Below are positions 5,808 through 9,440 of a stretch of 38,153 nt of DNA, piece by piece; position 1 is the stretch's first letter; each line of letters starts with the position of its first letter. The DNA is from Candidatus Saccharimonadota bacterium (lineage in GTDB: Bacteria > Patescibacteriota > Saccharimonadia > Saccharimonadales > UBA4665), in NCBI GenBank assembly GCA_027327085.1, contig DAHWAT010000004.1, positions 1-38,153 on the forward strand. The letters run 5' to 3'. The notes under the pieces were generated by a model that was not told the origin of the DNA, searched no databases, and was given only the letters and a program-made list of their open reading frames with translations. Position numbers and translations under genes: made by a program.

Positions 5808-5882
5808 TGGGACGTGGCCAAGTGGTAAGGCACCGGGTTTTGGTCCCGGCATTCGGGGGTTCGAATCCCTCCGTCCCAGCCA
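5808..5882 (+). tRNA. tRNA-Gln (anticodon UUG), CCA encoded
   Basis: Acceptor TGGGACG/CGTCCCA; anticodon arm CCGGG-TTTTGGT-CCCGG (TTG at 34-36); T arm GGGGGTTCGAATCCCTC; discriminator G then CCA at 5880-5882. Confidence 0.97.
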
Positions 5883-5892
5883 AAGTATCTTG

Positions 5893-5920
5893 TTGACATG
5901 TGATACACTTTTGATACACT
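5893..5920 (+). promoter_or_regulatory. Promoter and probable operator of the toxin-antitoxin operon
   Basis: TTGACA (5893-5898), N16, TACACT (5915-5920) with extended -10 TG; direct repeat TGATACACT at 5901-5909 and 5912-5920 (11-bp period) suits RHH antitoxin autoregulation. Confidence 0.55.
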
Positions 5921-5926
5921 ATATCT

Positions 5927-6151
5927 ATGAGTACTGCAAAATCACGACTAAACATCAGTCTCCCAGACGATACCAAAGAAGCTCTCCTAAGAATTGCTAA
6001 GCGAGACCAAATGCCTGCCGCTACTAAGGCTGTTCGGCTTATGGAGATTGGCATGGAAACCGAAGAAGATGAAATATGGGATAAAATTGCTGCAAGTAGA
6101 GACCATAAAAATACCGTTTTTCACTCACACATTACCGCATTTGGTAGCTAA
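5927..6151 (+). CDS. RelB-like/ribbon-helix-helix antitoxin
   Basis: 74 aa; N-terminal MSTAKSRLNISLPDDTKEALLRIAKRDQMPAATKAVRLMEIGM matches an RHH pattern; stop codon directly abuts the ATG of the next gene. Confidence 0.8.
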   Translation: MSTAKSRLNISLPDDTKEALLRIAKRDQMPAATKAVRLMEIGMETEEDEIWDKIAASRDHKNTVFHSHITAFGS

Positions 6152-6424
6152 ATGTACAAGATCACCTATGCAGATAAGGTGTTTAAGGATGATTTACCTA
6201 ATATTCTTGAGCCATGGAAAAGCGAAATTAGAATAGCTATTGAAACAAAGCTTGCAACTCGACCGGAGCTATATAGTAGACCACTTCGTCGCTCATTAAA
6301 AGGGTATCGTAAATTAAGAGTTGGTGGTTATCGTGTCATATTCAGGATAGAAAACAAAAAAGTTAAAATCTTTGTTATCCAACATCGTTCAACTGTATAC
6401 ATAACTGCCCCAGATCGTCTTTAA
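6152..6424 (+). CDS. RelE/ParE-superfamily toxin
   Basis: 90 aa; YADKVFKDDLPNIL...RPLRRSLKGYRKLRVGGYRVIFRIENKKVKIFVIQHRSTVY, typical RelE core. Confidence 0.88.
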   Translation: MYKITYADKVFKDDLPNILEPWKSEIRIAIETKLATRPELYSRPLRRSLKGYRKLRVGGYRVIFRIENKKVKIFVIQHRSTVYITAPDRL

Positions 6425-6453
6425 ACTACTACCATAGATAAACTCAACTCACT

Positions 6454-6482
6454 GAGAGTTCAAATCCATTATCCCCAGACAA
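6454..6482 (+). repeat. tRNA-3'-end-like sequence, copy 1 (degenerate)
   Basis: GTTCAAATCCATTATCCCCAGACAA aligns gaplessly to the tRNA-Gln end GTTCGAATCCCTCCGTCCCAGCCAA with 18/25 identities by eye. Confidence 0.5.
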
Positions 6483-6516
6483 TATTTGACGTATTATTAT
6501 CTGTTATTATAAATGA

Positions 6517-6732
6517 ATGTCAGTGGAACTGCGAGACAATATAAACGATGGTTTTACCCACCCTTCCGAAGAAGCAGCCCGCCTGCTTACTCTTGAGGAA
6601 AGAGAGCAAAGAATTGGCATGTTTATTATTGCAGCCACAAAAGGTACGGCTTCTGTTGCTCTCCCAGGAGCAATAGTTGAGATAGGCAGCGACGTTATAG
6701 TTGGTAATCCGTACTTCCCTATAAGCAAGTAG
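6517..6732 (+). CDS. Small hypothetical protein (71 aa)
   Basis: Complete ORF preceded by extended -10 TGTTATTAT (6502-6510) exactly 6 nt before ATG; no recognised family. Confidence 0.5.
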   Translation: MSVELRDNINDGFTHPSEEAARLLTLEEREQRIGMFIIAATKGTASVALPGAIVEIGSDVIVGNPYFPISK

Positions 6733-6932
6733 CCGTCATGGCCGGCGTACTGGCGGTGTACCAAACTTATCAATTTCTAAGACAACGTTTGGCTAGAAGA
6801 TAGTAAATCTTGTTAATTATTACTCAAATCTAAAAAGCTTAGGGAATAAAAGACGCCATTTCATACGAATTCATAAGTAGGTGTTTAACACTGAACATAA
6901 TGGCTCATCTATACGACCACGATAAATTCTTA

Positions 6933-6965
6933 GGTTCGAGAATCGGAATATAGTCTTTGAAAAGC
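6933..6965 (+). repeat. tRNA-3'-end-like sequence, copy 2 (degenerate)
   Basis: GTTCGAGAATCGGAATATAGTC matches copy 3 (GTTCGAAAATCCGACCATAGTC) at 18/22 positions by eye. Confidence 0.45.
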
Positions 6966-6996
6966 TGAGTATCATTCATTTTGATACAATTAGGAT

Positions 6997-7215
6997 ATGT
7001 TTAAAATTATCGGTGCTTTGGGCTTGATCTTAATCTCGATTGGGGTTATTACAAAGCAGAGGAAACGTCAGGACATTCTGTATATTGTTGGAGGGTTGTG
7101 CTTAGAGGCTTACAGCATCAATTTAAATGATGTCATATTTATCATTCTTCAAATAGTTTTTAGCTTGTCAGCAATATACGATTTAACAAAACTTATGCGC
7201 TCAACAAAGCCTTAA
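6997..7215 (+). CDS. Small two- to three-TM membrane protein, unknown function
   Basis: 72 aa, hydrophobic segments (IIGALGLILISIGVI; VIFIILQIVFSLSAIYDL); preceded by TGATACAAT 6 nt before ATG. Confidence 0.65.
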   Translation: MFKIIGALGLILISIGVITKQRKRQDILYIVGGLCLEAYSINLNDVIFIILQIVFSLSAIYDLTKLMRSTKP

Positions 7216-7252
7216 CTCTAGCTATCGACTCAGGGTCAATAGCAAGATTCAA

Positions 7253-7284
7253 AGTTCGAAAATCCGACCATAGTCCCAGCCAAG
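7253..7284 (+). repeat. tRNA-3'-end-like sequence, copy 3
   Basis: GTTCGAAAATCCGACCATAGTCCCAGCCAA; exact 11-bp GTCCCAGCCAA match with the tRNA-Gln 3' end plus the T-loop-like GTTCGAA. Confidence 0.6.
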
Positions 7285-7334: not shown

Positions 7335-9440
7335 TTAGCCAGTAGAACCATGTGTTGGAGTAGTCCCGTTTGGTGCCAATAAGTCAAATCCATCAACCTT
7401 ATTCAGCATACCCTTTGAGCTGCCGGGTGTATCACTTACGCCATACTGCCAAACCAATGCTTTAGTTGTAGGGTCAATTGCTACCATTCTATCTCTATGA
7501 TCATCATTTAACATAAAAACCCCACTAGGTAATTTTTCTACCAAGGAAGGGTCGTTTAAGCGTCCCGGTCCAGACGTCGGCTGATACCGGTATAGTACTT
7601 GTCCTTGACGAGTAAAAGTCAGAATAGCACCTGGATTTGAATAGTCAGCTATTAAATATAGGTTTGGGTTTTTACCAGGACCTGCTCCAAGTTGCTGCGG
7701 GTCTGAAGGATAAGAAATAGGTAACTTGGTAGCCCAAACCATCTTACCGGTAGGTGTATACTCGCTGACCCATGACCCAATAATTTCAGATACCAGTATA
7801 TTACCGTCGTACAATGGCGTATCACCATTGGGAGAGCCGAGCGATACCCCTGGATTATGCACACAAACCCCAGGTTCGCCAATAGTATGCGCAATTGTCT
7901 TATTTGGGTTAATAAATAGGATGCGACAATTTTGGTCATCTGCAACCACAACTTGTCCATTCTTAAGTTGATAAGCGTCATCAGGAGCTCTAAGATACCC
8001 TGGGGCACTACCTGCCGCTAGAGGATGCCCATAGGACCAGATTATTTTGCCTGATGGATAAGCTATTTTTACTATCGTATTATTGTTTTCTTGGTTAGAA
8101 ATTATTGCATGACCTTGATTTGCGAAAAATGCATCATCTGGAAAATAAAAGTTTGTGTTGCTTGCAGGCAAAGATTTAGATGGATACTTCCAGGTAATAT
8201 TCATTGATGAGTTCATTACCAAAATACGGTTGTTGCCCCTGTCGGCAATCATTAATTTATTACCATAGTAAGGGGAACCAGCTCCAGGAGTACCGGCTAC
8301 TCCAAACAATATATTGGGCTTAAGCATCTGCACAACTCCAACTACCTGTCCGTTAGACTCTCCGCCTACTAGCCAACCCGTGTTAGATATCACTGCGATA
8401 CCAGCATTAGATACCGGAACCTGTAGTCTACCGGCTAATAGGAATTGACCGCTGCTAGGATTTACAGCCCAGATATTATTAGTAGTTTTGGTGTTTGTAA
8501 CAGATATACCGCTTACTTGGGTAGTACCAACGCCTAGAGGTATATTTTGGACCTGATTACTTTGTCCCCCAACCAAGAACATTTCGTTATTTAAGACTAC
8601 TGCCGTAGAACCTTCTAGGGGCATAGGTAACTTCCAGGAGGCTAATTTAATAGTATGATTAGCTGGATTGATTATCTGTACTGTATTAACAGGCTGATTA
8701 GCGTCATGGCCCGATACAGCCAACCCGCCAAATATATATATTTTCCCATCAAAGCTAGCTGCGGCAGCATACCTCACAGGATATGGTAATAAACCAAAAA
8801 CGCTAAAGTTTTTTCCATCCGTAGTTGATAAAACCTGAGGGTCAGCCGTATTGCCATTGTACCCACCTATAATATAGGTCGTGTTGCCGATAGTTGCAGC
8901 TGTAGCATCAGATCTTAACTGAGGCATTTTTGCAACATTTGTTGCTCCTTGGTTAGCCGAAATTATCTGGGCTGTATTGACCGAACCCGATTGTCCGCCA
9001 CCGAAGATAACCATCTTACCTTTAACCATAGCACTGGCCGCATCATGTACACCAGTAGATAAATTACTGGTTAGATTAAGGTTGCCGTTAGAAGTGTTTA
9101 AGCTATACACGCCGCTAGCAGATGAGTTAGATGATGTATACCCACCGACAATGATTAAATTATTGCCGTTAGGGAAAACTGCCATACGGCTTAACGGTGA
9201 TGATAGCTGCCAAGGTAACAAACCTGATTCTGCGGCTGCTAATTTTGGAGTCGAATTTTTAGGTGTAACTCTAGTTGATAAACCAGAAATAGTGTTATGA
9301 TTTTGCCCTTTAAAGATTAAAAGCCCTGCTGCTATAACAATGACGATTCCAAAATAAATAAATTTAGCCTTAGAGTTTTTTTTTCTTTTTAAGACAAATT
9401 CTGGCCGCTTCCTTCTTGGTACAAACATCATGATATCCAA
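7335..9440 (-). CDS. Membrane-anchored kelch-repeat / beta-propeller protein
   Basis: N-terminal basic stretch and single TM (FIYFGIVIVIAAGLLIF), kelch-like repeats (NLIIVGGY, KMVIFGGGQ, TTYIIGGYNG, KIYIFGG, EMFLVGG), then a second propeller-like half (IADRGNNRILVMN, VVADDQNCRILFIN, MLNDDHRDRMVAID). ORF-track start is TTG; ATG at 9431 or 9428 is more likely. Confidence 0.8.
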   Translation of the reverse strand: MDIMMFVPRRKRPEFVLKRKKNSKAKFIYFGIVIVIAAGLLIFKGQNHNTISGLSTRVTPKNSTPKLAAAESGLLPWQLSSPLSRMAVFPNGNNLIIVGGYTSSNSSASGVYSLNTSNGNLNLTSNLSTGVHDAASAMVKGKMVIFGGGQSGSVNTAQIISANQGATNVAKMPQLRSDATAATIGNTTYIIGGYNGNTADPQVLSTTDGKNFSVFGLLPYPVRYAAAASFDGKIYIFGGLAVSGHDANQPVNTVQIINPANHTIKLASWKLPMPLEGSTAVVLNNEMFLVGGQSNQVQNIPLGVGTTQVSGISVTNTKTTNNIWAVNPSSGQFLLAGRLQVPVSNAGIAVISNTGWLVGGESNGQVVGVVQMLKPNILFGVAGTPGAGSPYYGNKLMIADRGNNRILVMNSSMNITWKYPSKSLPASNTNFYFPDDAFFANQGHAIISNQENNNTIVKIAYPSGKIIWSYGHPLAAGSAPGYLRAPDDAYQLKNGQVVVADDQNCRILFINPNKTIAHTIGEPGVCVHNPGVSLGSPNGDTPLYDGNILVSEIIGSWVSEYTPTGKMVWATKLPISYPSDPQQLGAGPGKNPNLYLIADYSNPGAILTFTRQGQVLYRYQPTSGPGRLNDPSLVEKLPSGVFMLNDDHRDRMVAIDPTTKALVWQYGVSDTPGSSKGMLNKVDGFDLLAPNGTTPTHGSTG

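Follow-up and report, generated by a model that had tools for sequence, protein, structure and literature searches.

Gene cassettes behind a tRNA-Gln gene in a Candidatus Saccharimonadota genome that probably carry their own extended -10 promoters and leaderless starts

The window analysed here is a stretch of 38,153 nucleotides, contig C44 of a 636-kb Candidatus Saccharimonadota genome in 50 contigs (about 82% complete). Behind its tRNA-Gln (TTG) gene, whose 3′ end GTCCCAGCCA forms the 5′ border, lies an island of three small modules. Sequence comparison makes it likely that modules 1 and 3 represent separate mobile cassettes, each with an extended -10 promoter of its own, and that they are expressed as leaderless messages. 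The second module is doubtful both as a promoter and as a gene. Most of the widespread CPR bacteria are uncultured, and to our knowledge translation start in this group has been little studied. A literature search that missed most subscription journals and preprints yielded nothing on leaderless genes for Saccharibacteria, CPR or Patescibacteria, and no paper on cassette arrays such as these.

Results

Promoter geometry of the three modules

A preliminary description of this DNA had placed an extended -10 box 6 nt before each of three start codons, and this is exact to the base. Module 1 has TG at 5912-5913, TACACT at 5915-5920, atatct at 5921-5926 and ATG at 5927; module 2 has TG at 6502-6503, TATTAT at 6505-6510, aaatga at 6511-6516 and ATG at 6517; module 3 has TG at 6982-6983, TACAAT at 6985-6990, taggat at 6991-6996 and ATG at 6997. 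The number of nucleotides between the end of the -10 box and the ATG is called d below. Open reading frames were called mechanically, and the start codons of some genes may be wrong. The features of the island are collected in Table 1.

Table 1. Features of the cassette island and related repeat loci
Feature	Position	Strand	Basis or remark
tRNA-Gln (TTG)	5808..5882	+	ARAGORN and Rfam RF00005
Module 1 -35 box TTGACA	5893..5898	+	spacer 16 to -10; kept in homologues
Module 1 doubled box GTGATACACT-TTTGATACACT, overlapping the extended -10	5900..5920	+	nearly all CPR homologues keep the doubled box
Module 1 antitoxin, RHH/CopG-like, 74 aa	5927..6151	+	Pfam RHH_5, E=0.0033, below curated cut-off
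Module 1 toxin, ParE/RelE family, 90 aa	6152..6424	+	Pfam ParE_toxin, E=1.8e-7, above cut-off
GTTCAAATCCATTATCCCCAGACAA, degenerate tRNA-Gln(CTG) 3′-end copy closing module 1	6458..6482	+	compared with GTTCGAATCCCTCATCCCCAGCCA of tRNA-Gln(CTG); copy after the toxin-antitoxin pair in L129
Proposed module 2 extended -10 TGTTATTAT	6502..6510	+	read from sequence; rival TTGACG-N16-TATAAA overlaps
Module 2 ORF, 71 aa, possibly not a gene	6517..6732	+	no Pfam match
Decayed repeat and cassette border, GTTTAACACTGAACATAATGG..; ..GTTCGAGAATCGGAATATAGTC	6880..6957	+	blastn to L123/L105 and L122
Module 3 extended -10 TGATACAAT	6982..6990	+	TGATACAAT-N6-ATG identical in L122 and L123
Module 3 gene, 72-aa membrane protein	6997..7215	+	weak Imp-YgjV similarity, Pfam E=0.0096, below cut-off
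80-bp conserved palindromic cassette-end site, ending GTCCCAGCCA	7204..7282	+	17 of 295 genomes in this order have copies
CAGCCA-bounded repeat loci	L161 5012-5101, L169 4599, L204, L168, L160 6528, L162 4091

Among all ATGs in 385 kb sampled from this genome, 0.21% have the arrangement TGnTAnnnT-N6-ATG, and 1.3% have a TA...T box with at least four of six matches to TATAAT at the same distance. The chance of finding the geometry at all three modules is about 1e-8 if random ATGs are the reference. With true gene starts as the reference, of which 11 of 234 in the genome have an extended -10 at d = 6, it rises to about 1e-4; the pattern was picked post hoc, and both values are therefore upper limits on significance. 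The geometry of the modules differs from the expectation for random sequence, and the joint chance value is not to be over-read.

Homologues of the modules

Module 1 is a type II toxin-antitoxin (TA) pair, a ParE/RelE-family toxin with an adjacent RHH antitoxin, and the antitoxin-toxin order is conserved in its homologues. There are 59 relatives in the genome collection, the closest of them in Candidatus Saccharibacteria loci. TTGACA-N16-18-TACACT recurs in nearly all, mostly together with TGATACACTTTTGATACACT. None of the 48 CPR homologues has a Shine-Dalgarno (SD) sequence, in contrast to all 10 non-CPR relatives with an identified start, in which the leaders measure 17-21 nt at the six located promoters. 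Assignment by similarity was needed for seven CPR loci and one non-CPR locus, and the SD contrast is unchanged without these. Of the 41 promoters that could be located in CPR homologues, 19 stand at d = 5-7 and another 6 at d = 8-9, so that 25 lie at most 9 nt from the ATG. Because the remaining 16 have leaders longer than 12 nt, the leaderless form is not obligatory for this family.

A second copy of TGATACACT lies at 5900-5909 in module 1, 11 bp 5′ of the other. The doubled box around the -10 is probably the operator of the RHH antitoxin, which would bind it and repress its own operon. At three loci from other CPR phyla (L014, L021, L037) the same TA pair seems to stand directly behind the 3′ ends of other tRNA genes, and the tRNA association of the pair may perhaps be general. 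Another contig of the same genome carries two weak toxin relatives side by side (L002/L003; G000:C11 11091-11923).

Module 3 has a paralogue on contig C46 of its own genome, 84% identical, and a relative in genome G008. Both lie downstream of tRNA-Gln(CTG) and keep TGATACAAT-N6-ATG, which gives two further contexts for the box; a copy in G030 seems identical to that on C46 and is not counted as independent. The stretches concerned (G000:C46 and G030:C92, or L106 and L104) seem identical in genomes assigned to different genera, and probably represent one contig binned twice. Comparison of promoter boxes in homologous cassettes, which had been proposed as a check on the preliminary description, thus finds the box kept with the gene for both modules 1 and 3.

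The sharing of TTTTGATACAMT by modules 1 and 3, also described earlier, is borne out. It does not show common regulation, because in module 3 TTTTGATACAMT is the organism's extended -10 consensus and in module 1 it is half of the doubled, operator-like box. A shared operator was rejected as the main reading of the two modules, since TGATACAAT-N6 also precedes unrelated genes. A broader version of this idea is unlikely, though it is the best of the alternatives: the promoters would be real but give short leaders of a non-SD kind, or TGATACACT and TGATACAAT would be mainly operators co-regulated by the antitoxin. The high conservation of the doubled TGATACACT box in module 1, the common TTTTGATACAMT and the d of 8-31 in many CPR homologues would fit such a reading, but module 3 copies elsewhere have one box only and vary at the doubled part, and the occurrence of TGATACAAT at d = 6 before unrelated chromosomal and cassette genes is better explained by an extended -10 consensus.

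The second module fares differently. No convincing relative of its ORF, only marginal partial matches, was found in 93 genomes of the family and 380 of the phylum, and it was rejected on this ground as a conserved gene. At 6486-6513 TTGACG-N16-TATAAA competes with the proposed box, and its predicted start falls inside or past the ATG. Because the module has no homologue and a competing -10, both its promoter and its gene are doubtful. The earlier suggestion that every module has its own promoter and would be read as a leaderless message is therefore weak for module 2; for modules 1 and 3 it is well supported, because the box is conserved with a moving cassette and the genome as a whole shows a peak of -10 boxes at d = 6-7.

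Genome-wide distribution of the -10 box

The peak appears among the 202 gene starts that have 35 nt or more of space on their upstream side, when boxes with at least five of six matches are counted. Such boxes stand at d = 6 in 13 of 202 and at d = 7 in 11 of 202, compared with 1-4 at d = 0-5, and their number drops again beyond. Internal ATGs, taken as a control, have 2-5 of 1044 and no jump at d = 6-7. The same peak is found in two other Saccharibacteria (G075 and G127), where a box at d = 6 precedes 13-15% of genes; among 63 sampled genes of E. coli K-12 none has it. An SD-like motif accompanies 1 of 57 d = 6 genes from three genomes. Since the peak is genome-wide and TGATACAAT-N6-ATG is found at ordinary chromosomal genes as well, the d = 6 geometry would appear to be a general leaderless architecture of the organism and its CPR relatives, with a TGn-extended -10, rather than a mark of the island.

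The geometry is nevertheless enriched in cassettes. An ORF was taken as a cassette gene if it had 70 aa or more and lay upstream of the 80-bp site, and the sample comes from one site family. A -10 at d = 6 precedes 17 of 34 of these genes (50%). The share is 25 of 234 genes (11%) genome-wide (Fisher p = 3e-7), and in the sequence flanking the same loci it is 23 of 142 (p = 1e-4). The box is thus about four to five times commoner in cassette genes than in the average gene, and half of the cassette genes sampled have none at this distance. TGnTAnAAT-N6-ATG is found before unrelated cassette genes at five loci (L159, L162, L163, L200, L201); the d = 6 genes include a glyoxalase-type gene (L159), a DUF1653 gene (L201) and genes outside any Pfam family (L162, L200). 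Two homologous NUDIX cassettes (L160, L204) keep d = 6 with differing boxes, TATCAT and TATTAT.

These distributions make it improbable that the geometry is a coincidence of AT-rich DNA and that the modules are read from the tRNA-Gln or some external promoter. The module region is indeed AT-rich, in a genome of GC 0.39, the pattern was selected after the fact, and read-through from the tRNA-Gln gene, 45 bp 5′ of module 1, is possible. An extended box at d = 6 is rare before random ATGs, however; it stays with its gene in other genomes and contexts; and the peak at d = 6-7 is absent at internal ATGs.

Cassette borders and the 80-bp site

In the site downstream of module 3, 23-bp arms form an imperfect palindrome; GTTCGAAAATCCGACCATAGTCCCAGCCA comes next, with an end like that of tRNA-Gln. 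The site contains GTTCGAA and closes with CAGCCA. There are up to three copies per array at a spacing of 0.6-0.7 kb, and 24 aligned copies have a mean column identity of 83%. The central GCCATTGAC-N5-GTCAATAGY resembles dif in its symmetry; the dif layout, with Xer sites of 11+6+11 bp, is 28-bp, and the conserved unit here is 80 bp. RNAalifold found no consensus structure for the site despite a hand-drawn hairpin in which 85% of cells are paired, and folding is therefore not claimed. The site also occurs at L158, L161, L163, L164, L169 and L200, where the arrays contain TA, NUDIX, glyoxalase-type and small membrane-protein genes, and several arrays lie behind tRNA-Gln(CTG). Copies of a tRNA-Gln end border the cassettes of the window at 6458-6482 and 7254-7283, and an intact form of the 6880-6957 repeat, with CCAGCCA, is present in L123. 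Other repeat families of about 80-90 bp are likewise bounded by CAGCCA, some with no gene between, for example CAGCCAAAGCTAACTACAGCATTAAAGTCCGT...GCTCAGCCA.

Individual cassettes recur between genomes: NUDIX cassettes at 86% (L160/L204) and 89% (L163/L205) identity, a 71-aa protein at 85% (L200/L206) and module 3 at 83%. Like 5′ ends meet different upstream sequences at CAGCCA, the 3′ end of tRNA-Gln. In the window the TA cassette lies behind tRNA-Gln; in four other genomes of the family the sequence before it is unrelated, and genome G009 has the same tRNA-Gln(TTG) without the cassette; the cassette start CAGCCAATTTGGTAATATA is found after a tRNA, the 80-bp site or other repeats. Within array cores CAGCCA is enriched on the strand of the site, 70 against 30. 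In cassettes with a clear 5′ border the ATG lies 34-98 nt within it, and the promoter therefore travels with the gene. No clean empty site for the whole island was obtained via the neighbouring genes, because the downstream Kelch gene is itself sporadic (6 of 91 genomes). This gene, on the minus strand at 7335-9440 behind the island, encodes a Kelch/NHL-repeat protein of 701 aa; it is near an 80-bp site in L204 too, and may belong to the mobile region.

Recombinases

No recombinase or integrase was found among the ORFs of the island. The genome, at about 82% completeness, which leaves room for a missed gene, has one PF00589 protein, an Xer-like tyrosine recombinase (304 aa, L208:596-1510) that scores 257.7 and 251.4 bits against XerC/XerD and 133 against the integron integrase model (integrase_gron; cut-off 265). 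One tyrosine recombinase per genome is typical; second copies were seen only in G030 and G056, and none was found in G032. The second recombinase of G056, a genome that carries the 80-bp site, is divergent and Xer-like (325 aa, L209:918-1895).

That the island is a sedentary chromosomal integron, with promoters that happen to lie inside its cassettes, is very improbable: the cassette arrays, the imperfect palindrome closing a cassette at its 3′ end and the TA, NUDIX, glyoxalase-type and small unknown genes are all integron-like, but the search for recombinases, which finds typically one per genome and in this genome one far nearer to XerC/XerD than to an integron integrase, and the anatomy of the site, which lacks clean RYYYAAC/GTTRRRY ends of a canonical attC and is joined at CAGCCA and not at G^TT, lead us to reject it.

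Discussion

The preferred reading of modules 1 and 3, as mobile cassettes with their own leaderless promoters, implies the following course of events. Site-specific recombination would most likely insert each cassette at a CAGCCA end, the recombining sequences being CAGCCA and the 80-bp site. A sigma-70-type extended -10, inside or near the 5′ border and 6 nt before the ATG, would then direct RNA polymerase to start at the A of the ATG or within one base of it; a -10 at d = 6 can tolerate a start one or two bases either way. Translation of the mRNA would be leaderless, and the cassette would be expressed from its own promoter wherever it is inserted.

A bolder proposal, which we hold only tentatively, is that Saccharibacteria have a system of their own, in which integrase-less cassettes are moved in trans between tRNA-Gln 3′ ends and 80-bp sites. 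The resident Xer recombinase would perhaps be the mover. If this is true, a leaderless promoter on each cassette would let it be expressed at any position, with no need for an array promoter.

Precedents exist both for leaderless genes and for cassettes that bring a promoter (PMC4633059, PMC11014356). Mycobacterial leaderless genes, in the Actinobacteria, have a promoter directly 5′ of the ATG and no Shine-Dalgarno sequence, and transcription is expected to start at the start codon (PMC4633059). The present genes in Saccharibacteria and CPR resemble them in all three respects; they differ in that the -10 is TGn-extended and the case is built from sequence.

The preliminary description had also set these modules apart from classical integron cassettes by their internal promoters. 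This contrast was too sharp, since integron toxin-antitoxin cassettes also bring their own promoters (PMC11014356), although, on the features examined, the locus is no integron. The likeness lies in a small cassette with its own promoter within an array and a site at its 3′ end. Here, in contrast, no integron integrase or attI was found, the site is not a canonical attC, joins are made at tRNA-Gln 3′-end sequence, and non-TA cassettes also carry promoters as a rule.

The plasmid dif (pdif) modules of Acinetobacter are likewise small, often encode toxin-antitoxin pairs and are shuffled with only Xer-type recombinases at hand (PMC6449649, PMC13141974). The present modules, unlike these, are chromosomal, lie behind tRNA-Gln and have an 80-bp site that ends in a copy of the tRNA 3′ end. 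Genomic islands and satellites targeted to tRNA genes also insert at the 3′ end and leave the tRNA intact, whereas the units here are about 0.5-1 kb, have no integrase and form serial arrays with decayed tRNA-Gln ends between them.

Module 1 shares with other type II ParE/RelE and RHH systems a two-gene operon with the antitoxin first and repeated boxes over the promoter. Its CPR members are without an SD leader, whereas the non-CPR members keep one. The family thus offers a natural comparison, in which the same promoter is followed by an SD leader elsewhere and by none in CPR bacteria. The cassettes suggest, moreover, how genomes of about 0.6-1 Mb could acquire and express new genes without a platform promoter.
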